A stretch of DNA of 42,137 bases from a virus: IMG/VR virus record IMGVR_UViG_3300045885_000494, positions 1 to 42,137 of that record; one strand, given 5' to 3'. Both the position numbers and the translations under genes were made by a program. Shown here piece after piece: positions 12,427 through 23,867 of the stretch. Position 1 is the stretch's first letter, and every line of letters begins with the position of its first letter. The notes beneath the pieces are model-generated. The model ran no database searches. It saw only the letters and a list, made by a program, of their open reading frames with translations, and was not told the origin of the DNA.

Positions 12427-13374
12427 CTACGCCACCGGATTATTAATAAACTGCCCGGCACGGGACGACGTCACATGCTGCGCAAAGTAGGTATTGCCCT
12501 CCAAAATATCCACCTCGCGCTCGTCATTGCGTTTGCGCGTGAAGTACTGGATACTGTTGGGCACCCGTTGCCAGGTAAACGTATAGGTCGCCGCCGGGGT
12601 CATCAGGCTCGGAGCCGAGGGGGTGTAGAGGAGCAGGGCGTCATTGCCCCAGACCCGCTGATACACCACGTTCGCTTCCGGGGTCCCTTCTGCAGACGTC
12701 GTATAAATCGCCCGTCCCACTAACACCGTCTCAATATCGAGCAGACTCGCCATCAGATCCGTCGTCACCACGGCCCGCTGCACATACTTAATCGTGTCCA
12801 TAATGTTCGGATGCCATTTCAGCACCGACATGACCTGCTTCCCCAGTACAAAGCGATTCGGCATCCGGGCAATGCGCCCTTCCACGGCGTCCTGATACGT
12901 CGTAATATCCACCAGCGGCGTCGAGGTGCCATAGGTCGACCACAGCACGCTCGGGGTCACATCGGCCCCCCACACGCCGGTGGTAAAGTAGCGGGTCGCC
13001 CAGTTCACCTCGCGTTTCATCATGAGCCGATCCGTCACAAAGGCGGTGCCATCCCGGTCCAGGTCATAGGGCGCGTCGGTGTTGTCCCGCACTTCATCAG
13101 GGATCTCGAAGCCAAACGAGTAGCGCGGGCAGTAGTAGGTCATCGTATTATCGACCGTAAAGCCGCCACGCTCCGACAGCGTCCCAGGCGCCCGGATCTG
13201 CGCCTGGTTCCTGAACCAGTGCGACTGATCATAGCGTGGGATAATGTCCGACTGGCGGCGTACCGGCACAATCGGCGCGATGGAGTCGGCAATGTAGAGG
13301 TCGTTTTTATAGCCAATCGACATGTTCGTCAGCAGCATGTCGACGTGCACGTCGCGGCTTGTCACCTCAGCCAT
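12427..13374 (-). CDS. Major capsid protein (HK97-fold expected)
   Basis: The 315-residue protein sits after the scaffold and decoration genes. It begins with SRDVHVDMLLTNMSIGYKND, a region common to a group of phage capsid proteins annotated from metagenomes. It continues with a long helix-forming segment DRDGTAFVTDRLMMKREVNWA, the spine-helix candidate, and beta-rich peripheral sequence with PSAPSLMTPAATYTFTW. The order protease, scaffold, decoration, this gene, connectors strongly supports the call. Its N-terminus is not obviously removed by a protease, since the scaffold is a separate gene. AGGAGA precedes ATG 13374. Confidence 0.85.
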   Translation of the reverse strand: MAEVTSRDVHVDMLLTNMSIGYKNDLYIADSIAPIVPVRRQSDIIPRYDQSHWFRNQAQIRAPGTLSERGGFTVDNTMTYYCPRYSFGFEIPDEVRDNTDAPYDLDRDGTAFVTDRLMMKREVNWATRYFTTGVWGADVTPSVLWSTYGTSTPLVDITTYQDAVEGRIARMPNRFVLGKQVMSVLKWHPNIMDTIKYVQRAVVTTDLMASLLDIETVLVGRAIYTTSAEGTPEANVVYQRVWGNDALLLYTPSAPSLMTPAATYTFTWQRVPNSIQYFTRKRNDEREVDILEGNTYFAQHVTSSRAGQFINNPVA

Positions 13375-14754: not shown

Positions 14755-15336
14755 CTACACCTCCTCACGGATAGCCGAGCCCTGGATAGAGAACATGCCA
14801 AAATCCCCCTCGCGGATACGCTTGAACACGTCCCCGTCCGGCACATGAAAGCCCACCCACAGGCCCTGCGGGAGACTGTCGCCCGGCAACCCCATGGCTT
14901 CCAGCTTTTCCGGGGTCACGACAAAGGACTCAATGAGCTGCCCCACGGCATCGCCTTCGTGCATGACGCCACTCTCCCGGTAGGCGAGGGCGAACTGGTA
15001 GGCGGCTTCTTCTAAATCGTCCACGTCAATGATGTCACCCTGCAGGTCTTCGACCACCTCGCCAGACTTCGTCACCGCGACCGACGCCCAGCCAAAGACG
15101 TACTGCCGCTCGCTATCAAACTTCAGCAGTTTCTCGACCTTGTGCCACTTTCCGTCGCTATCCTTGCTCCATCCGGCTCGGCGCAACCCGGCCCAGGCCG
15201 TTGCAAAAGCCTTGTCCTCGTCATCGGGATATTGCTTGTCGGCGGCGTTAAAGATCGTCCGCCACGTACTTTGACCCGCTGCAGGGAGGGCTGTGCGCAC
15301 AGCCTCAGGCAACTCCGCATTGCTGGCATACGGCAT
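14755..15336 (-). CDS. ChaB-domain / XkdF-like prohead protease fusion
   Basis: The 193-residue protein joins two recognisable parts. Residues 8-58 match the ChaB fold (LPEAVRTALPAAGQSTWR, DEDKAFATAWAGLRRAGW). Residues 70-193 match the XkdF-type putative serine protease of phage heads, with YVFGWASVAVTKSG, DLQGDIIDVDDLEEAAYQFA, a VMHEGDAVGQLIESFVV segment holding the candidate catalytic histidine and serine, and LWVGFHVPD with FGMFSIQGSA. Its job is probably to process scaffold and head proteins during maturation. The following gene keeps the VDRGAN motif usually found at the XkdF C-terminus. ChaB fusions to XkdF occur in some phages; the role of ChaB there is unknown. Confidence 0.82.
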   Translation of the reverse strand: MPYASNAELPEAVRTALPAAGQSTWRTIFNAADKQYPDDEDKAFATAWAGLRRAGWSKDSDGKWHKVEKLLKFDSERQYVFGWASVAVTKSGEVVEDLQGDIIDVDDLEEAAYQFALAYRESGVMHEGDAVGQLIESFVVTPEKLEAMGLPGDSLPQGLWVGFHVPDGDVFKRIREGDFGMFSIQGSAIREEV

Positions 15337-15338
15337 CG

Positions 15339-15635
15339 CTACACCCCAGCAGGCTCAGCAGGTGGGTATTCGGGCTCTGGTTCTGGCTCGGGTTCTGGTT
15401 CGGGTTCTGGTTCAGGGGGTTCCGGCGTCAGGTGCACGTTGGTGAGCAGACGACTGAGATGCTGGCGGCACGCTTCCAGTTCGGTATCGGTAGGACTGTC
15501 GCCTTCGAACGGTGCCAGGGGATTATCGACCAGCCACAGCTCTAACAGGTCATCACCTGTGACCGCGCCAGCGTCGCTCATGACGGCGTGGCAGGGCAGG
15601 CCGGTGGAATCGTCTCCGGTAATGGTGTAGGGCAT
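15339..15635 (-). CDS. Small acidic protein with Glu-Pro repeat tail
   Basis: The 98-residue protein starts at ATG 15635, with GGGAGGCTCCT just upstream; the longer open frame overlaps a terminator and is unlikely. It contains YTITGDDSTGLPCHAVMSDA, DDLLELWLVDNPLAPFEGD and a run of alternating Glu-Pro (about 8 pairs) encoded by 12-bp tandem units GGTTCTGG(C/T)TC(G/A) at about 15377-15415 as read on the plus strand. The Glu-Pro stretch should form a stiff extended rod. It sits between the minor-head polyprotein and the protease. Function is unknown; a head-assembly accessory role is inferred from position. Confidence 0.65.
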   Translation of the reverse strand: MPYTITGDDSTGLPCHAVMSDAGAVTGDDLLELWLVDNPLAPFEGDSPTDTELEACRQHLSRLLTNVHLTPEPPEPEPEPEPEPEPEPEYPPAEPAGV

Positions 15636-15690
15636 AGGAGCCTCCCAGGAAAAAGAGTGGGGAGGCGCTGGTACGGACGCTGGCAGGCAC

Positions 15691-15725
15691 AAAAAAAGCG
15701 TAGCCGGACAGGGTCCGTACTACGC
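15691..15725 (-). terminator. Rho-independent terminator after the minor-head polyprotein gene
   Basis: Read on the minus strand, GCGTAG, TA, CGGAC, CCT, GTCCG, G, CTACGC forms a long stem with a 3-base loop, followed at once by seven T residues. This is a textbook intrinsic terminator. It lies 49 bp after the stop of 15774-19382 and before the head genes at 15635 and below. Either it sets the level of downstream genes by partial read-through or an antitermination system is used. An outer pairing GTACGGAC/GTCCGTAC (15671-15678 with 15713-15720) could form a competing hairpin. Confidence 0.85.
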
Positions 15726-15773: not shown

Positions 15774-18700
15774 TCAGTCGGCGTTGGGGTCCGCCTGGTT
15801 GTAGCCGCTGGCACTCTCCGCCTTGCGCATGAAATGTTCCATTTCCTCACGCTCCTCGGTGCTGGGGGTATAGGCCGCAGCCTCCGCCTGCATGGCCCTG
15901 GCGTCCGCCACATACTCGTCGTGCGTCCACGTCTCATGGCCAGGGGGCCAGAGATCCGGCACAAAGGTATCGACGTCGTCGGCTTTGTCGACCACCTCAC
16001 GGCGGTCAGGAGCATGTTTGTCCACCTGCGGGATCTCCTCAATGTAATAGACCGGATGCGCGACATCCGGTTCACGCACAATATCCAGGATGCGAAACTT
16101 GGTATCGGGCGGGTAGAGAAATTCCTGCTCGCGGCTCTTGGCACCCATGGCCGACAGAGGTCGCACGTCATACGAGCCGCCATGGCTCTTGATGACATAG
16201 AGATACTGGCCGAAGCCAAACGTATGCAGCGCCACATCACGGTTGCGGCTGGTAGACGCAAAACCTTCCAGCATAATCTCGCCCCCCTTGACGTGCGTGG
16301 CCAGGTGCGCGGCTTTGATCTCCCGCACGCCCCGGTAATACCGCTCCGACTCCTGGGAACGCTCCAGTTTGGGCAAGGCCGAGAGGGCCGCGTCAATCAG
16401 TGGGGCATGCTGGACACGCTCCTGAGCACGCTTGTCCGGGTCACGGGAGTTCCAGAACACTTTGTTCATGTCGTGGTAATGCTGGCCCGTATAGGCATAG
16501 AGAGACACCGCTTCATATTCGTGCATGTCGGTCGGCACCTTCCGCTGCATGACTGATCGCGCATAGCTATCATAATTATACCCCAGATACTGCTTGAGCC
16601 TCGCCGTGGCCACGGCCACACTACTGTCGTGCTCCGTCAGCCCCACCTGCTCTTCCAGCAGCGTTGCGCGTTTCTGGAGGAGAGCCGCAATCTCCTTGCG
16701 TTGCTTCAGGGTGACGCCTTTGGCGGCTGGCAGCAGGTCCAGAAAGTTGTTACTCTGGGCGCGGAGGTGTTGCAGTTTTTGCACCTGCCCCAGCAGGTCT
16801 GGGATCGCGTCCGGGGCACCATAGCCCGAGGCCTGAAACACCTCGGCATAGGCCCGGTTCAGGTGGGGCTTCTGAAAGCCCTCCCATTCCAGGAGCTGCG
16901 TGAGCTGATTTGCCGGTTTCTTCGCCCCCTGCGCCCGGTACATGAGGGAGCCGCCGTTATCGATGCGGGTGAGCTGGTTGCCGCGCACCAGGATATTATC
17001 CATGGTCAGCCCCACGGCATCGCGGTTCGCCAGCCACACATCGGCCACAAAGCCCTTGAGCACTTCCTGCGCGCGGGCCTGCGTCAGGCCGGCCTTGTCG
17101 AGGGTCTGCCCGCCTTCCAGAAACGGCGCCGCCACGCCTACAATCTTGCCCTCTTTCATGACCAGTTGTTGCTCAGGCGCGTCAATGCCGAGTGAGCGAT
17201 ACAACCGATTCGCCGCAAATTCCTGGTACGCCTGCTGCGTCTCGGGATGTTTCAACACGCGCAGCACGCCGTCTGTGCCCCGGTAGAGCTGTGCGCCAGT
17301 CGATCCCCCTAACGCCTGTACGAGTTCCCCAGTGACCACATCAGCGTCAATCGTGTGGGGGACTTTGGGCAGCTTCGGTAACTCTGGAGGCGGTGGCGGG
17401 GCTGGCGCGGTGACGGGCGCTGGCGTCGGGAATGCCCCGGTGCTCACTGCTGGCGCCACGCCAGGCGTTTTGGGTAACAGGCCCTGGTCTTGCAGGGCCT
17501 TCAAGACCTTCAGCGGGTAGGGCTGGCCCTGCGCCAGCAAGCCGTGTTCGAGGTCCGCAGGGGAGAGGAGTTTCACACTCCACGTTTCCCCGCCAAAGCC
17601 CGTGGGGTTGCCGCCTATGCGCTCCCCCAGATAGAGGCGCGTCGTGCCGGTGGTGGTCGTGAAGTCGCCCACAAAGCCCGTCACTTTGGCCTGCAAGCCG
17701 GTCTCTTCAAAGACTTCTTTGAGGGCGTTTTGCTGCGGCGACAGGCCCTGCTCGAGGGTCCCCTTGGGAAAGGCCAGGCTGTAGCCGCCGAAATGATTCT
17801 TGGGCTCGTAGACCCACACCTTGCCGTGTTCGATCATCACCACGCCGGTTGAGAGCTTGCCGGTGGGGAGGGCTGGCAGCGGTCCCACGTCGACGTCTTT
17901 CGTCTGCATCCAAAAGTTCTGCGGCGGATTGGTGGACCACGGTGGCGACGGGCTGTGGATATCCCAACTTTCACTGACCAGGGGCGGAGGAGGTTCCACC
18001 TGTGCAGGTGGGACTTTCGGTTGCTTCGGCGCTTTCGGTTGCTTCGGGGGTTTGGGTACGGGTGGTTGCAGCACGGGCGCCGGCGGGGGCGGTGGAGGAA
18101 ACGGCTCGGGCTGCGGGAAGGTCACCGGAGTTGGCACCCCGGGCGGCGTGGTGAGCTGTGGCGCGGCAATGATGGTCGGCCGCACGATCACCACACACCG
18201 GCAATTGGGATGGCTTGGCGGACGCATCTTCGGACCAGTTGGGGTCTGAAACGGCTCGTCAAACAGATGGCCGTCCGGGTTCATCCCAGGGATGGCCTGG
18301 CAGATGGGACAGGTCCGGCTATCGTAGGTAATCAGCCAGAAGCGCCTGAGCGCCGTCTCTGGCAGATTGGCCTGGTGCTTGGCCGCCTGAAAGAACGTGT
18401 CCGCGGCGACGTTCAATGCCGCGTTGGTTTCTGTCCTGGCAATGGTCATGGTGCGCCGGCGCAAGAGGCGGTTCGCCAACTTTTCGGTCAGCACATCCAC
18501 CTTCGCTGGCGGCGTGTCACTTTCCATGAGACTCTGGTTATAGGCCAGAAGCTGCTTGCCTTGCGCCGGGAGGAGTCCGAGAATGTTGCGCAATTCCTTC
18601 GCAATCTTCGGGGTGGTCCAGCCCTCTGCTAAGCCCTGGCGCAGGATCGCACGGCCGGCCTCGACGGTCGGTGCCCACAGGTTCTTGGCCCGGGTCAGCC

Positions 18701-19382
18701 CCTCCGTGCGCACATACGCCTGTGCTCTGGGTGACAACAAGTCTTCGGGTAACTTGGTAGGGAGTTCCGCCGGCACTTTGGTGGCCAACAGGACCTGGCG
18801 TACCGCTGGCCACTGCGCCTCGGCAACCTGCTCAAAAAGCTTGCCGGTGAGTTCAGCAAACGCTGGCACGTAGTCATAGGCCATCTGCTGCATACCAAAA
18901 TCCACCAGGTCACTCATGGCGGCGGTGTGGTTGCCGGTGAGGAGGTGCTGGTGCACGCTGGCCGGGAGCTTTTCCCAGGTGAAGGCCTGCATAAGCGCTT
19001 GCTGGAGTTGCGGCGCCGCGGCTTCGGCAATGTCGATCAGTTGTTGCCACTGCGCCACGCCGGAGAGGGCGGTGGCGGGAGCGCCTTGCGGGGGACCGGC
19101 ACTGGCCCAGGAGGCGGGGGACTGGGTGCTCTGGCCAGCCTGAGCAGGCACGCCGAGCGCGGCCTGCGCGGCATAGACCTGCTGCAACTTCTCCTGGATA
19201 ATGGCCAGGTTCGCTGGTGTGGAGTGCGGGTCCTTGAGTCCTTGCTCTAAGCCCTCCTGGACAATCTTGAGCTGGCCCTCATTGAGCCCGCTATAGGGGT
19301 TCGCAGCTTTCACCAGCCGCAGGTGTGGCCGCTGGGGTGGGGCACGTCTGGGCAGGCGGGGGGCGAGGGCGAGCCAGGGCAC
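15774..19382 (-). CDS. Minor head polyprotein: Mu F-like / Nudix / kinase-like / ADP-ribosyltransferase
   Basis: The 1,202-residue protein has four recognisable domains joined by Pro/Lys-rich linkers. Residues about 105-400 are an SPP1 gp7/Mu F-like head morphogenesis domain with TARTET-like IARTETNAALN (315-325), CPIC (358-361) and HPNCRC (391-396). Residues 510-615 are Nudix-like: the box at 541-563 keeps the catalytic KE..EE core but has Leu for the first Glu and Lys for Arg. Residues 680-870 resemble the HipA/PI3K-like kinase fold, with VLKH (Lys711), NRD (786-788), DNILV (795-799) and IDNGG (807-811). Residues 920-1105 are an R-S-E ADP-ribosyltransferase: YYRG (Arg1017), STS (1043-1045) and EQE (1085-1087), plus the YT..Y.DMN segment. 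GTG 19382 overlaps the portal stop as TAGTG. F-like proteins join the portal, so the enzymes may be packaged and injected like T4 Alt; that is inferred. Confidence 0.85.
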   Translation of the reverse strand: MPWLALAPRLPRRAPPQRPHLRLVKAANPYSGLNEGQLKIVQEGLEQGLKDPHSTPANLAIIQEKLQQVYAAQAALGVPAQAGQSTQSPASWASAGPPQGAPATALSGVAQWQQLIDIAEAAAPQLQQALMQAFTWEKLPASVHQHLLTGNHTAAMSDLVDFGMQQMAYDYVPAFAELTGKLFEQVAEAQWPAVRQVLLATKVPAELPTKLPEDLLSPRAQAYVRTEGLTRAKNLWAPTVEAGRAILRQGLAEGWTTPKIAKELRNILGLLPAQGKQLLAYNQSLMESDTPPAKVDVLTEKLANRLLRRRTMTIARTETNAALNVAADTFFQAAKHQANLPETALRRFWLITYDSRTCPICQAIPGMNPDGHLFDEPFQTPTGPKMRPPSHPNCRCVVIVRPTIIAAPQLTTPPGVPTPVTFPQPEPFPPPPPPAPVLQPPVPKPPKQPKAPKQPKVPPAQVEPPPPLVSESWDIHSPSPPWSTNPPQNFWMQTKDVDVGPLPALPTGKLSTGVVMIEHGKVWVYEPKNHFGGYSLAFPKGTLEQGLSPQQNALKEVFEETGLQAKVTGFVGDFTTTTGTTRLYLGERIGGNPTGFGGETWSVKLLSPADLEHGLLAQGQPYPLKVLKALQDQGLLPKTPGVAPAVSTGAFPTPAPVTAPAPPPPPELPKLPKVPHTIDADVVTGELVQALGGSTGAQLYRGTDGVLRVLKHPETQQAYQEFAANRLYRSLGIDAPEQQLVMKEGKIVGVAAPFLEGGQTLDKAGLTQARAQEVLKGFVADVWLANRDAVGLTMDNILVRGNQLTRIDNGGSLMYRAQGAKKPANQLTQLLEWEGFQKPHLNRAYAEVFQASGYGAPDAIPDLLGQVQKLQHLRAQSNNFLDLLPAAKGVTLKQRKEIAALLQKRATLLEEQVGLTEHDSSVAVATARLKQYLGYNYDSYARSVMQRKVPTDMHEYEAVSLYAYTGQHYHDMNKVFWNSRDPDKRAQERVQHAPLIDAALSALPKLERSQESERYYRGVREIKAAHLATHVKGGEIMLEGFASTSRNRDVALHTFGFGQYLYVIKSHGGSYDVRPLSAMGAKSREQEFLYPPDTKFRILDIVREPDVAHPVYYIEEIPQVDKHAPDRREVVDKADDVDTFVPDLWPPGHETWTHDEYVADARAMQAEAAAYTPSTEEREEMEHFMRKAESASGYNQADPNAD

Positions 19383-20686
19383 TAGTCCAGGTCCTCTTCT
19401 TCCGGCGCCGGGAGCCCCATCTTGAGCCGCACCGGCCGCTCCAGGTCCTCCACGGCAAAGCCCGCCTGTGCCAGATTCTTGACCGCTTCCGACAGTTCCT
19501 TCACGTCCACATGCTCCACGTCGCCATGGCTCACGGTGGGCATCAGGTCCAACGGCAGCCCGTTCACCTCCCAGAGCACCGGCAGCGCCTCGCGCGCTAA
19601 CACCTCCCCGATGGCGTCGAGATAGCCCCCGAGGGCCGTCGCAAACAGGTTGGTTTTACTGCTTGCCAGGGCATAGGAGCCCACCTGCTCGTGGCCCACC
19701 AGAATCATATCGGCAAGCACGCTCTGGGCAATGCGGAGTTCGTAGCGCTTAATGATGGTGTCCGTATCAAACTGCCGTCTCCCCCCAGTGCTGAGCAGTT
19801 CTAACTTATACAGCTCGTTGCCCTCCGCGTCATAGACCAGCGGGAAAACAATCCCCTCTTGCTCATCCCGACGGATATTGGTGGCGAGTTTTTTGTACGT
19901 CTCCAGCAGGGCTTTGGCTTCGGGGGAAGCATCCGGCGCCAGCAGGGCTGGTGGCACCTTGACCACGGGCAGGCCGGCCAGGTCACGCTCAATCCCAATC
20001 CCCTCGATGTTTTCGATATGTGTGAGGTTGTACCAGGCGCGGTAGGCTGTACGCAGGATGCTGCGTCCCTCGGGGTTACTCTTGTAGGCCATGGGACGAA
20101 ACAGCAGCGTTTTGGCGCGGGGGATCGTCACCACGGGGCCGCCCGCGGGGGGTTGTTGCAGCATCGCGGTCACTTCATCGCGCTCGTTAAATTGCCATTG
20201 CAAGAGACTATCCTGCGAGCGCAAGCCCATATCGGCAAAGCCTAAGCGACCGTCTGTGGCACGTGACGACTGCCAGGGGTCGCGGTGGGCTCCACTGCGG
20301 CGCTTCAGCGTCCATTCCACCAGTGCCCAGCCAAAGGGCAGCATCGAGAGGATGTCACTGAGGCGCGTATGCCAGGTGGTCAGGCAATCATCGAAGAGTG
20401 CGTGTTGGGCAAAGCTGGCGAGGTCGATGGCCTGTTGGCTGTCATCCGCTGGCGTACAGGTCCAGCCGACCGGGCGCATGAGCATTTCGACCGCAAAGAG
20501 AATTGCCCCAACAATGGGGGAATTGTCGCGCATACGCTTGAACGTGCGCATGCCTGCCGGGCCGGTGAGTTCCGGTAAGAATTCCTCGCGGACGTAGCCA
20601 CCCCATTGCAGTAAGCCAGGGGTCCCTATGGGCTGCATAGGCGCGGTCACCGGAAACGCCGCGCTGGTGCCATTACGCTCTGCCAC
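19382..20686 (-). CDS. Portal protein (DUF935, Mu gp29-like)
   Basis: The 434-residue protein matches Mu gp29/DUF935 portals: an N-terminal GLLQWGGYVREEFLPELTGP, RDNSPIVGAILFAVEMLMRPV near residues 58-78, a central WALVEWTLKRR, KTLLFRPMAYKSNPEGRSIL near residue 205, and the C-terminal helix region with EVLAREALPVLWEVNGLP and MGLPAPEEEDLD. It forms the dodecameric DNA entry ring at one capsid vertex. GTG 20686 has GGAGG seven bases upstream and lies just after terL. The next gene is an F-like minor head protein, the usual partner of DUF935 portals. Confidence 0.9.
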   Translation of the reverse strand: MAERNGTSAAFPVTAPMQPIGTPGLLQWGGYVREEFLPELTGPAGMRTFKRMRDNSPIVGAILFAVEMLMRPVGWTCTPADDSQQAIDLASFAQHALFDDCLTTWHTRLSDILSMLPFGWALVEWTLKRRSGAHRDPWQSSRATDGRLGFADMGLRSQDSLLQWQFNERDEVTAMLQQPPAGGPVVTIPRAKTLLFRPMAYKSNPEGRSILRTAYRAWYNLTHIENIEGIGIERDLAGLPVVKVPPALLAPDASPEAKALLETYKKLATNIRRDEQEGIVFPLVYDAEGNELYKLELLSTGGRRQFDTDTIIKRYELRIAQSVLADMILVGHEQVGSYALASSKTNLFATALGGYLDAIGEVLAREALPVLWEVNGLPLDLMPTVSHGDVEHVDVKELSEAVKNLAQAGFAVEDLERPVRLKMGLPAPEEEDLD

Positions 20687-20689
20687 AGT

Positions 20690-21967
20690 TTACCTCCAAT
20701 GACTCTGCTGCGTGTCCCCACCGACACCGACCAGGGGCGTCTCCTGCGGTCCGAGCAAGAGCGCGGTCAGCGCCCATATACACGCGTCTAAACGGTTGGG
20801 ACTCGGCAGACTCCCCCCCGGCACCCACGAGCACAATTCATCCTCCAGCGCGCCAAACGTGCCGACGTGATGCACCTGGCCCTTTTCGTAGCGGGCCGCA
20901 ATCGGGTCCGCCCGCGCATATTTGCCCTGGCTCGCCCAGACGGTCTGCACGGCCGCCTGGTCGTCCACGGTCGCCAACGTCGTCGGCACCATCTCCCCCC
21001 CGTGGTTGCGCTCCGCAATGATCGCGGCGGCCTGCCATTTATGATACGCCGCGATGCACTGCCTCGCCCAGCCCAGCGGTGAACTGTCTAGACTCAGATC
21101 CTCCAGCACATAGCCGTGACCATCCGTCCCCAGGCCAGCGACCACAATCCCCGCGCTGCTGCCAGGATCGAGCCCCACGACAAGCCGCTTCATGGCAGGC
21201 GCCTGCGTCACTCTGGTGGCTTCCAGGCCGGCACGGGTCCATAACGCGCCTGGGGCATCGTCATTTTCCTCCGCCAAAATCTCTTGACGGTACGCCACAT
21301 AGGTCATATCCCTGGTGATCTCGTCCAGGGCCTGGGCGGAGAGATACGGATTCTCCTGGCTGGTAAAGTGAAACGTGGCCCAGCGGCCGGTCGTGTCCTG
21401 CTGTGCCCGGGCAAAGAGTTTCGAGGCATGGCGGGGGTCATGGGCTTTGGTGATCGAGGCGGTCCGAAAGGACGGCGGCGTATAGCAAAAGACCGCATCG
21501 CCGTTGGTATCGAGCAGCATAGGGGCACCAACCACGCCCCAGGCGTCCTCATTCATAAGCTGGTATTCGTCAAGGATGAGGAGCGAGGCATAATCGCCAC
21601 GCAACGTATCGGGACTCCAGGCGGTTTTCGCGCGCAGGCGTTGCTCGGTCCGGGGACGTTCGATGGTGTGGAGCGTCTCGTTTTGCATCAGAAAGCCCAT
21701 GGCGATGGGGGCAGCGAGTGCCAGCGTCACTTCATGCCAGAAGCGTTGCACCTGCTCCTGCGTCGGCACCGCATAGAGGATGCGCTGGCCCTGGAGGAAG
21801 GCCTGCACCGCGAGAATAGCCAATCCCGTTGTTTTCCCCCCACGCCTCCCGGCCCGAATGACCTTACGCTTCGCCGGGCTGGTTAAGAAACGGCGTTGCT
21901 GGGGGTGCGGCAATTTGAGGGGGATAGGCACTTCGATCTGGCGAGGTGCCTGGACGCTCGTTGGCAT
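20690..21967 (-). CDS. terL: Terminase large subunit
   Basis: The 425-residue ATPase-nuclease carries a Walker A motif RAGRRGGKTTG at residues 38-48, Walker B LLILDEYQLM near 129-138, and an RNase H-type nuclease domain with acidic residues in VVGLDPGSSAG, AERNHGGEM and NRLDACIWAL. It cuts concatemeric DNA and pumps it through the portal. ATG 21967 has AAGGTGG four bases upstream, so the 104-bp overlap with the 3' end of terS is probably real. Length is typical for phages with small heads. It sits directly after terS and before the portal. Confidence 0.95.
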   Translation of the reverse strand: MPTSVQAPRQIEVPIPLKLPHPQQRRFLTSPAKRKVIRAGRRGGKTTGLAILAVQAFLQGQRILYAVPTQEQVQRFWHEVTLALAAPIAMGFLMQNETLHTIERPRTEQRLRAKTAWSPDTLRGDYASLLILDEYQLMNEDAWGVVGAPMLLDTNGDAVFCYTPPSFRTASITKAHDPRHASKLFARAQQDTTGRWATFHFTSQENPYLSAQALDEITRDMTYVAYRQEILAEENDDAPGALWTRAGLEATRVTQAPAMKRLVVGLDPGSSAGIVVAGLGTDGHGYVLEDLSLDSSPLGWARQCIAAYHKWQAAAIIAERNHGGEMVPTTLATVDDQAAVQTVWASQGKYARADPIAARYEKGQVHHVGTFGALEDELCSWVPGGSLPSPNRLDACIWALTALLLGPQETPLVGVGGDTQQSHWR

Positions 21968-22376
21968 AGACCACCTTAAAAACCACGTCCTGGTCGTTGG
22001 CGCCGGTATGGGCGACTTTCATGCGGTCGCCGTACTTCTGGGGCATGGCGCCTTTCAGGAGGAAGATGAGGAGCGTATCGCTGTGTTTGGTCACCTGATA
22101 GGGGGTGCCATCGAGGGCATAGTGGGTTTCTTCCCAACCCTGGGCACGGCGGATGGCTTCTTCTTCCAGGCGTTCGCCAGCGATGGCCTGGGCTTCCTCA
22201 CAGGCAGCCGCATAGGCGGGATCGGTGCGCTTCCAGTAGTAGTGCAAATGCGTATCAACGCTGGTAGCCCGACACGCCTCCCGTAACCGTCCCGTCTCAG
22301 CATAGGCTAAGAGTAGCGCACGTTTTTTACTGTAGGAAATTGTAGGAAAAAGCGCGGTCGGTGCAGGCTTTGCCAT
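21864..22376 (-). CDS. terS: Terminase small subunit
   Basis: The 170-residue protein has the N-terminal helix-turn-helix of terS proteins (SYSKKRALLLAYAETGRLRE, ACRATSVDTHLHYYWKRTD) followed by helical oligomerisation sequence (EEAQAIAGERLEEEAIRRAQG) and a terminase-type DTLLIFLLKGAMPQKYGDR segment. It recognises the packaging site and recruits TerL. The start at ATG 22376 has GGGAG upstream; the longer frame to 22451 would run through an inverted repeat. It is the first gene of the late operon, behind a likely promoter at 22477-22503. Confidence 0.88.
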   Translation of the reverse strand: MAKPAPTALFPTISYSKKRALLLAYAETGRLREACRATSVDTHLHYYWKRTDPAYAAACEEAQAIAGERLEEEAIRRAQGWEETHYALDGTPYQVTKHSDTLLIFLLKGAMPQKYGDRMKVAHTGANDQDVVFKVVYANERPGTSPDRSAYPPQIAAPPATPFLNQPGEA

Positions 22377-22431
22377 ACGTGCTCCCTGGAGAGTGCGAGC
22401 GCAGTACGGCATGAGGCTGGTACGGTATCCA

Positions 22432-22464
22432 GGCGTAGTACGAGGGCTCATGACGCACTACGCC
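22432..22464. promoter_or_regulatory. Inverted repeat upstream of terS (candidate packaging or regulatory site)
   Basis: GGCGTAGT (22432-22439) and ACTACGCC (22457-22464) form an 8-bp perfect inverted repeat around a 17-base centre that includes the palindrome TCATGA. Short GTACGG and GTACG repeats lie just to the left. The location, in the terS leader, suits a TerS-binding pac/cos element or a late-promoter control site. There is no T-tract, so it is not an intrinsic terminator. The arms recur in two other hairpins in this genome. Confidence 0.45.
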
Positions 22465-22647: not shown

Positions 22648-23412
22648 TCATGCCGCAAGTTCGTCGCGGATCTCTTCGCGATGGCTCCAGCGCACGGGAC
22701 GCACGTCGTAGTGTTGCAAGGCATCGATGGTGCTGGGAGGGATGGGCTGTTCCGTATCGTTGAGCATCGCATAGGCGCGTGCCTCGATCAGTCGGATATC
22801 TTTCGTATCAACCCACGCAAAGACGACATTTTTGACGGTCTCGGGGGAGGGACGGTTGATGAGATGCACAATGCGTTCCGGATACTCACGGGATTTGGGA
22901 ATGACAAAATCAAAGACGGAGTCGAAGCCACTTTTGCCAGTGATCTTCAGACGTGTCGTATAGCGAATCTCACAGAGATCCAGCCAGTCCATCACATCAT
23001 CATAGAAGAGACGCGCGATCATGGGGACGGCGAGATAGAACATATCATTGACCGCAAGCATCGCTTGAATGAGACTATGTTTCCGGATGGCAAAATCTTC
23101 ATATGTCGCCATGGTCTCCAAGGCATTGTCACGCTGATGGACATGAAAGCCGTTGAGCGTCGTTGTGAGGAGAGCCTGTCGACGTTCGGTGTCCATGGAA
23201 CACCCTGAGTGGGCAAGATCGTCCAGGATATAGCCTCCATCAGTCAACACATACCCTTCGTCACGACGCTGGGCATAGATTTGCAGATGGTCGTTATGCC
23301 GGTCCAGGTAGGGGGTAGTGATCTCGATCCACTCGCCCACCTCGCGCAAGTCACTCTGACTGCGCAGCCAGCGATAGTAGTCATCAAGGAGCTGCTGCAT
23401 TGTGTTGATCAT
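22648..23412 (-). CDS. DUF1828/DUF1829 domain protein
   Basis: The 254-residue protein resembles proteins that combine DUF1828 (N-terminal; LLDDYYRWLRSQSDLREVG, IEITTPYLDRHNDHLQIYAQ, YVLTDGGYILDDLAHSG) with DUF1829 (C-terminal; ITGKSGFDSVFDFVIPKSR, AFAWVDT-like sequence and a final VRPVRWSHREEI). The start at ATG 23412 overlaps the upstream DUF6978-like gene as ATGA. Function is not known; such pairs occur in phages and mobile elements and suggest a two-component module. Base composition is less GC-rich than in structural genes. A defence, exclusion or toxin-antitoxin role is a guess. Confidence 0.75.
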   Translation of the reverse strand: MINTMQQLLDDYYRWLRSQSDLREVGEWIEITTPYLDRHNDHLQIYAQRRDEGYVLTDGGYILDDLAHSGCSMDTERRQALLTTTLNGFHVHQRDNALETMATYEDFAIRKHSLIQAMLAVNDMFYLAVPMIARLFYDDVMDWLDLCEIRYTTRLKITGKSGFDSVFDFVIPKSREYPERIVHLINRPSPETVKNVVFAWVDTKDIRLIEARAYAMLNDTEQPIPPSTIDALQHYDVRPVRWSHREEIRDELAA

Positions 23413-23867
23413 GTGAACAGCTCGTGTTGGATAGTTGGTGGTTCGACAATATGACAATAGAGAATGAAATCGTTGAGTGTCTGCCGAAGATCGGTCACGT
23501 TTGGGAAATCGTCCGTGGGGACCAGCACCGCCCACTTATCCTCATATCCTTCTCGGTAGAGATGGAGGTGCGTCCCTGGCAGCCGCGTCCCGTCTGGATT
23601 CGTATGGGGAGCAGCCCCAAAGCATAAGCGTACCAACATGACGATCTGCCGTGCACGCATGTGGTAGCTCCCTTTCCGGAGATCGATGCGACTGCGGCCC
23701 AGATTGAGGACAAACGCCTCACGTCGATCCGAGGAGATGAGGGGAATACTGCATCGGCCTCCTAGGCCAGGATAATTCCATACCTGCTCATTGAGTCTGT
23801 ATTTGGCCATCATGATGAGGTCGTCTGCCTCCGCCTGCGTCGGTTGCGTCTCAGCCATGCAGGTCAC
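23409..23867 (-). CDS. DUF6978-like protein
   Basis: The 152-residue protein shows the pattern I associate with DUF6978: RREAFVLNLGRSRIDLRKGS, RQIVMLVRLCFG, APHTNPDGTRLPGTHLHLYR and GYEDKWAVLVPTDDF. The conserved HxNPDG and HxHxYREGYxxKWA segments hint at an active or metal-binding site. GTG 23867 overlaps a 21-codon leader frame as GTGA; ATG 23858 is the alternative. It overlaps the DUF1828/1829 gene by four bases, so the two products are probably made in step. Function is unknown. Confidence 0.65.
   Translation of the reverse strand: MTCMAETQPTQAEADDLIMMAKYRLNEQVWNYPGLGGRCSIPLISSDRREAFVLNLGRSRIDLRKGSYHMRARQIVMLVRLCFGAAPHTNPDGTRLPGTHLHLYREGYEDKWAVLVPTDDFPNVTDLRQTLNDFILYCHIVEPPTIQHELFT

Follow-up and report, generated by a model that had tools for sequence, protein, structure and literature searches.

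The window analysed here, a stretch of 42,137 nucleotides comprising the whole linear IMG/VR virus record IMGVR_UViG_3300045885_000494 (~57-68% G+C), encodes on its minus strand a protein of 1,202 amino acids in which a Phage_Mu_F (MuF) minor head domain is followed, in a single chain, by a Nudix hydrolase domain, a HipA/PI3K-like kinase and an ADP-ribosyltransferase (ART). The catalytic residues of these domains are conserved, the gene lies between the portal gene and the genes for protease and major capsid protein, and the three enzymes are linked recurrently in phages and bacteria. The protein is best read, with a probability of roughly 0.7, as a MuF-anchored, head-packaged multi-enzyme effector that would act on host proteins together with the ejected DNA.

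Domain architecture of the fusion protein

The frame is read from 19382 to 15774. A first-pass annotation of this DNA had given these coordinates correctly but without a strand, and the plus-strand reading of the same interval is interrupted by stops. The features of the gene, with residue numbers of the protein, are as follows.

15774..19382, minus: MuF-Nudix-kinase-ART fusion protein, 1,202 amino acids, GTG start overlapping the portal stop codon
18645..19382, minus: N-terminal region, residues 1-246; PHROG head-morphogenesis matches start at residues 122-165
18186..18644, minus: Phage_Mu_F / SPP1 gp7-like minor head domain, residues 247-399, with CPIC...HPNCRC (Pfam 1.2e-11; phrog_2468 9e-22)
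17883..18185, minus: proline-rich tether, residues 400-500, from the sequence
17478..17870, minus: Nudix hydrolase domain, residues 505-635 (Pfam 6.4e-10)
17694..17762, minus: Nudix box GTLEQGLSPQQNALKEVFEETGL, residues 541-563, Leu547/Lys555 variant with Glu556/559/560 kept
17313..17465, minus: second proline-rich tether, residues 640-690, from the sequence
16650..17354, minus: HipA/PI3K-like kinase, residues 677-911, with K711, E721, D781, N786, D788, D795, N796 and D808
16044..16637, minus: R-S-E ADP-ribosyltransferase, residues 916-1113, with R1017, STS 1043-1045 and EQE 1085-1087
15777..16043, minus: C-terminal tail, residues 1114-1202, conserved in the relative L007

All four domains named in the first-pass annotation proved real by the combined evidence of Pfam, HipA_C matches of relatives, AlphaFold2 and Foldseek, and conservation bears out the catalytic residues it had singled out (Lys711, Asp788, Asp808, Arg1017, STS 1043-1045 and EQE 1085-1087). 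Of the four profile hits that it had named as support, three were obtained with the window protein; the kinase was matched in relatives only. In Pfam, Phage_Mu_F (PF04233) matched residues 247-399 with 45.7 bits (curated cut-off 29.6, E=1.2e-11), NUDIX (PF00293) residues 512-620 with 39.6 bits (cut-off 21.1, E=6.4e-10) and ART (PF01129) residues 942-1102 with 39.7 bits (cut-off 22.3, E=4.3e-10). PHROG profiles returned head morphogenesis (residues ~122-403, 9e-22), Nudix and an Alt-like ART. The two proline-rich stretches (~400-500 and ~640-690) set apart the MuF domain, the Nudix domain and the remaining chain.

Kinase domain

In the Pfam scan of the window sequence, the kinase segment gave no profile match. 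Among 75 kinase relatives, by comparison, 38 individually matched HipA_C at E-values up to 1 (best 2e-5), and the single match stretch displayed spans the N-lobe and lies under the curated cut-off. Structure prediction with AlphaFold2 for residues 677-911, based on an alignment of 70 sequences from which rows of the phage collection were left out, resulted in a mean predicted local distance difference test score (pLDDT) of 97.1 and a predicted template modelling score of 0.93. When this model was compared with the PDB using Foldseek, the HipA-like kinase CtkA was the best match (E=1.4e-5, template modelling (TM) score up to 0.61), followed by RIOK1, PRPK, VPS34 and HipT. In a library of viral folds, the top match (2.4e-16, TM 0.81) carries the name 'ADP ribosyltransferase' of an uncultured phage, and further matches are named Nudix_Hydrolase or PI3K/PI4K. 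One kinase-like fold match with PI3K/PI4K annotation, BFVD entry L7TJZ0, stems from Halorubrum sodomense tailed virus 2, which suggests on the basis of predicted structures that the fold extends to archaeal viruses.

The domain of ~235 residues is characterized by the motif WLxNxDxxGxxxDN...RxDxGG. Over ~165 relatives, K711 (98%), E721 (99%), N796 (99%) and D808 (100%) are conserved at positions outside the motifs with which the family was gathered, while D788 (100%) belongs, together with D781 and N786, to positions covered by those motifs, and the conservation of these three is therefore partly built in. Hence, given the fold, the HipA_C matches of relatives and the conserved Lys, Glu, Asp and Asn residues, the segment looks like an active HipA/PI3K-type kinase, and the kinase fold that the first-pass annotation read around Lys711, Asp788 and Asp808 is upheld. 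A pseudokinase was rejected as the leading reading in view of the conserved K/N/D residues.

ADP-ribosyltransferase and Nudix domains

Besides PF01129, the profile ADPrib_exo_Tox matched the window protein just under its curated cut-off (7e-5), and the PHROG Alt-like match covers residues 916-1048 (1.2e-4). Profiles built from relatives matched solved ARTs of the PDB such as Lmo0066 (1e-31), VIP2 (7e-28) and a Tre1-like PAAR-ART (1e-25), with Vis in the same range (1e-25 to 1e-31); taken together, PDB and NCBIfam matches are spread over VIP2, Tre1-like and XopAI proteins. Across relatives, R1017 is conserved in 98%, S1045 in 84% (Ser/Thr in 97%), E1085 in 94% and E1087 in 100%. As a rule, ADP-ribosyltransferases with an ExE motif modify arginine, and by this motif the window ART should do so as well.

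The Nudix box GTLEQGLSPQQNALKEVFEETGL departs from the textbook form GX5EX7REUXEEXGU by L547 in place of the first Glu and K555 in place of Arg, while the metal-binding glutamates E556, E559 and E560 are intact. The two substitutions, already noted in the first-pass annotation, were found as described. Leu/Lys is present in 23 of 34 unique kinase-linked Nudix boxes and Glu/Arg in only one, so that the variant is a lineage mark rather than an oddity of the window protein; these counts were obtained with a profile seeded from the window protein, which more distant canonical Nudix genes may escape. In nearly all of these boxes, the KExxEE core keeps its Glu residues. Judged from the box, substrate and rate may differ from those of textbook-box enzymes, and NCBIfam matches of the domain are weak and mixed.

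Recurrent linkage of the three enzymes

While the whole window protein, scanned against IMG/VR, gave no match because its short patterns were too specific, alignment with the kinase segment yielded 287 relatives in IMG/VR, of which 80 were kept, and 78 in bacterial genomes. Domain arrangements were then counted with profiles built here in 166 kinase-containing frames (145 after removal of near-duplicates). Among the 145 chains, the kinase shares its chain with an ART in 71, with MuF in 49 and with a Nudix domain in 15. In addition, 20 kinase-ART genes are followed on the same strand by a Nudix gene starting 14-553 nucleotides downstream; beyond these 20, the search of the kinase loci gave no further Nudix gene standing separately on the same strand.

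The complete four-domain chain MuF-Nudix-kinase-ART was found in the window, in L007 and in L030, the latter with two ARTs. Since L007 retains all four domains and is ~61% identical to the window protein over nearly its whole length, the fusion is no misassembly, and an assembly artefact was rejected in view of L007, L030 and L171. In L007, as in L167 and L168, an intein-like insert (starting C-VPGDALV and ending THN before CRC) splits the HPNCRC motif of the MuF domain; it is absent in the window. In two further loci (L034, L094), MuF is a separate gene ahead of a Nudix-kinase-ART gene. Likewise, the complete, phage-like plasmid p2463-1 of Pseudomonas juntendi encodes, in sequence, portal, MuF, a Nudix-kinase-ART protein of 1,466 amino acids, an XkdF-like protease and the major capsid protein, which is the gene order of the window except that MuF is encoded separately.

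Searching phage records by tblastn returned seven phages of ~90 kb (Yersinia fHe-Yen8-01, Aeromonas ST4, Pseudomonas Touem01, Jeremy and Dolphis, Morganella Mecenats66 and Enterobacter phiT5282EW), the match spanning the Nudix and kinase parts. These phages carry the trio beside methyltransferase and terminase genes, and their stand-alone Nudix genes are 42-50% identical to the window Nudix domain. In four of the seven (L001-L004), kinase and ART form one protein, with the Nudix gene two positions downstream; a gene of ~160 amino acids lies in between, whose copy in L001 has no Pfam match. A third order, ART-kinase-Nudix, occurs in five Pseudomonas chromosomal proteins (L106, L108, L117, L145 and L159). 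The surroundings of one of them (L106, Pseudomonas sp. KUIN-1) are not phage-like but consist of sugar-transport, cellulase and chemotaxis genes. These proteins may be bacterial effectors, either descended from the phage module or representing its ancestors. A protein of Burkholderia sp. Ax-1724 (L153:6873-12710) combines a probable ART, recognized by eye, with the kinase and a tandem array of five Nudix units; in two of these units the box is degenerate.

The MuF carriers of the kinase vary greatly, falling into 35 types at a similarity cut of 0.75; a portal-based control for carriers without cargo comprised three loci, too few for use. Where no ART was found, a second conserved C-terminal domain of ~375 residues (RRG...GGAxYxFTRI...NETIFK...WPDGR) follows the kinase. 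This domain has 17 members (L035, L022, L032, L040, L044, L053, L070 and others), and was modelled by AlphaFold with a pLDDT of 83.5. It was considered as a candidate for a hidden ART, its resemblance to DarT being only weak (E=0.14, TM to target ~0.5).

Unrelated phages and bacteria thus carry the trio in fused, split or reordered form, which makes it probable that the three enzymes cooperate; their repeated joining in different orders argues for a shared task, presumably one directed at the host when infection begins. Of the joint action suggested in the first-pass annotation, it is thus the linkage that stands, and it speaks for such action indirectly.

Genome setting and probable virion location

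The neighbouring genes place the fusion gene within a head-gene order (TerS-TerL-portal-fusion-protease-major capsid).

21864..22451, minus: terminase small subunit, from the profile scan of window genes
20690..21967, minus: terminase large subunit, from the same scan
19382..20686, minus: portal protein (phrog_113, 2.6e-58), directly upstream of the fusion gene
14755..15336, minus: XkdF-like / head maturation protease-like protein, downstream of the fusion gene
12427..13374, minus: major head protein (2e-80), downstream of the fusion gene

The GTG start codon of the fusion gene shares bases with the portal stop codon (TAGTG) and is preceded by the purine-rich AGAAGAGG; by this overlap and the sequence ahead of it, translation of the fusion gene is probably coupled to that of the portal gene. 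Position between the portal and the protease and major capsid genes makes a virion location of the protein likely, in agreement with the head association proposed from the MuF domain. Further support comes from fHe-Yen8-01, in which the kinase-ART protein gp129, the small gp130 and the Nudix protein gp131 are annotated 'particle associated'; a literature search for this Yersinia phage found no paper.

The window also encodes tape measure, tail fibre, replication-initiation and HNH genes. Downstream of the fusion gene, a small open reading frame (15339-15692) has a low-complexity proline/glutamate tail and no immunity-like feature. A DUF1828/DUF1829 protein (22648-23535, minus) stands immediately before the terminase genes, and two alike proteins of ~340 amino acids near opposite contig ends (3974-5005 and 40485-41510, both minus) share the start FxDSxDHYxTAxxTEKW and are likely paralogous structural proteins.

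Proposed mechanism and alternative explanations

In the preferred reading, the F/gp7-like N-terminal domain would fix the protein close to the portal within the capsid, and the proline-rich tethers would suspend Nudix, kinase and ART inside the capsid, from where the three enzymes would be ejected together with the phage DNA into the host. Kinase and ART would most likely modify host machinery, as T4 Alt/ModB and the T7 kinase do, while the Nudix domain would cleave pyrophosphate-linked ADP-ribose or nicotinamide adenine dinucleotide (NAD) compounds that the same pathway produces or encounters.

Several points weigh against this reading. Packaging and activity of the fusion protein in the window phage are predicted from sequence and models. 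The TM-scores of the kinase model to solved kinases are modest (at most the 0.61 of CtkA), a profile comparison with E. coli HipA aligned 33 columns only and was uninformative, and part of the kinase conservation follows from the search motifs, as noted above. Moreover, in 29 of the 145 chains MuF and kinase are present, but the profiles used detected neither an ART nor a Nudix domain. Finally, the label 'particle associated' in fHe-Yen8-01 is broad, being also attached to a DNA primase, methyltransferases and many small proteins, and is therefore supportive of a virion location but not decisive.

Alternatively, Nudix and ART, perhaps with the kinase, could serve to neutralise host immune signals made of NAD or ADP-ribose, or to counter NAD depletion. 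Such a role has been proposed for phage Nudix domains facing ADP-ribose signals (PMC9503650), and each separate same-strand Nudix gene found sits right behind a kinase-ART gene. The ART, however, bears the R-S-ExE landmarks of macromolecule-modifying enzymes and belongs to no signal-degrading class, and the mixed NCBIfam matches of the Nudix domain point to no one substrate, so that an anti-defence function appears unlikely, if well worth keeping in mind.

Somewhat less likely still is a MuF polymorphic toxin, whose C-terminal enzymes would poison competitor bacteria or sway the decision between lysis and lysogeny instead of serving productive infection. MuF toxins with a C-terminal ART have been proposed for temperate phages (PMC5576092), C-terminal cargo differs widely on unrelated MuF carriers, and proteins with the order ART-kinase-Nudix are encoded in chromosomes, one of them in the non-phage-like context described above. 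On the other hand, the open reading frame downstream of the fusion gene does not resemble an immunity gene, the trio also resides in the ~90-kb phages beside methyltransferase and terminase genes, and the window genes covered by the scan, a part of those on a record that is possibly a fragment, included no integrase.

A more specific and rather speculative form of the preferred reading is a write-and-edit machine in the virion, with the trio as one dedicated unit: the ART would put ADP-ribose (or NAD-capped RNA) onto host arginines, the variant Nudix domain would trim the ADP-ribose to phosphoribosyl, and the HipA/PI3K-like kinase would phosphorylate the same target or the trimmed product. If true, the host modification would be irreversible by ordinary ADP-ribosyl hydrolases, and the recurrence of the trio in varied orders would reflect shared chemistry.

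Regulatory pseudokinases are common in biology, and the kinase directly precedes the ART in the window and shares a chain with it in nearly half of the non-redundant cases (71/145). Yet a pseudo-enzyme that regulates or folds the ART, or aids packaging, is improbable with K711, N796 and D808, all outside the search motifs, conserved to 98-100% in ~165 divergent relatives, and with the kinase also occurring together with Nudix or MuF where no ART was detected. A chance fusion or annotation artefact devoid of functional meaning can be dismissed almost entirely: the window contig is one metagenomic record, but L007, L030 and L171 already contradict it, as do trios in other contigs, a complete plasmid and isolated phages.

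Comparison with known systems

Like T4 Alt (and ModA/ModB), the window protein contains a phage-encoded R-S-E ART, although T4 Alt, an internal head protein, is not known to carry MuF, Nudix or kinase domains. T4 ModB joins host arginines to NAD or NAD-RNA (PMC10468400), and by this chemistry such a host modification is plausible. Fusions of MuF with ART or with Nudix, including the packaging idea, are already published (PMC9503650). These proteins and the MuF toxins of PMC5576092 resemble the window protein in that an F/gp7-like head domain beside portal and capsid genes bears a C-terminal ART or Nudix domain. The window protein differs in having both enzymes in one chain with the HipA/PI3K-like kinase between them, a partner of which no mention was found in the passages of the two papers that were searched.

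Polyvalent proteins also unite several effector domains in a single phage protein and are predicted to be packaged and injected (PMC5512222); the window protein shares this multi-effector build and lies among virion genes. Their kinase group is described as resembling Ser/Thr/Tyr kinases, with a His-Asp insert and the C-lobe lost, and is thus set apart by description from the HipA/PI3K-like window kinase, while their typical ART clade is H-Y-D in contrast to R-S-E (PMC5512222). By its fold and by the Pfam matches of its relatives, the window kinase falls into the HipA superfamily with H. pylori CtkA. A HipA-like kinase is also encoded between portal and major capsid genes in the Gratiaviridae gut phages, but is described there with an ATPase and a glycosyltransferase (PMC8008677) rather than fused to ART, Nudix and MuF. 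Yersinia phage fHe-Yen8-01 and its relatives have a homologous kinase-ART protein and Nudix gene, with 31-50% identity by domain in the four phages L001-L004; unlike in the window, no MuF was found in their kinase-ART chain, and Nudix is a separate gene.

Overall, the window protein belongs, on the best reading, with the MuF/polyvalent head-packaged effectors, with the kinase partner as an added feature. In the literature searched, we did not find this partner or the recurring three-enzyme module linked to head-packaged effectors, nor a paper describing the Nudix-kinase-ART trio, which is weak evidence as few subscription journals were covered.

Biological significance

What the host encounters first of a phage are its head-packaged enzymes, few of which are understood beyond T4 Alt/ModB and the T7 kinase. 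The present analysis outlines a kinase family in phages that is repeatedly tied to an ADP-ribosyltransferase and a variant Nudix domain. That bacterial chromosomal proteins contain this module too suggests that it has passed between phage effectors and effector-like proteins of bacteria. With the Pseudomonas phages Jeremy and Dolphis and the P. juntendi plasmid p2463-1, isolated systems are at hand in which the joint function of the three enzymes is testable.

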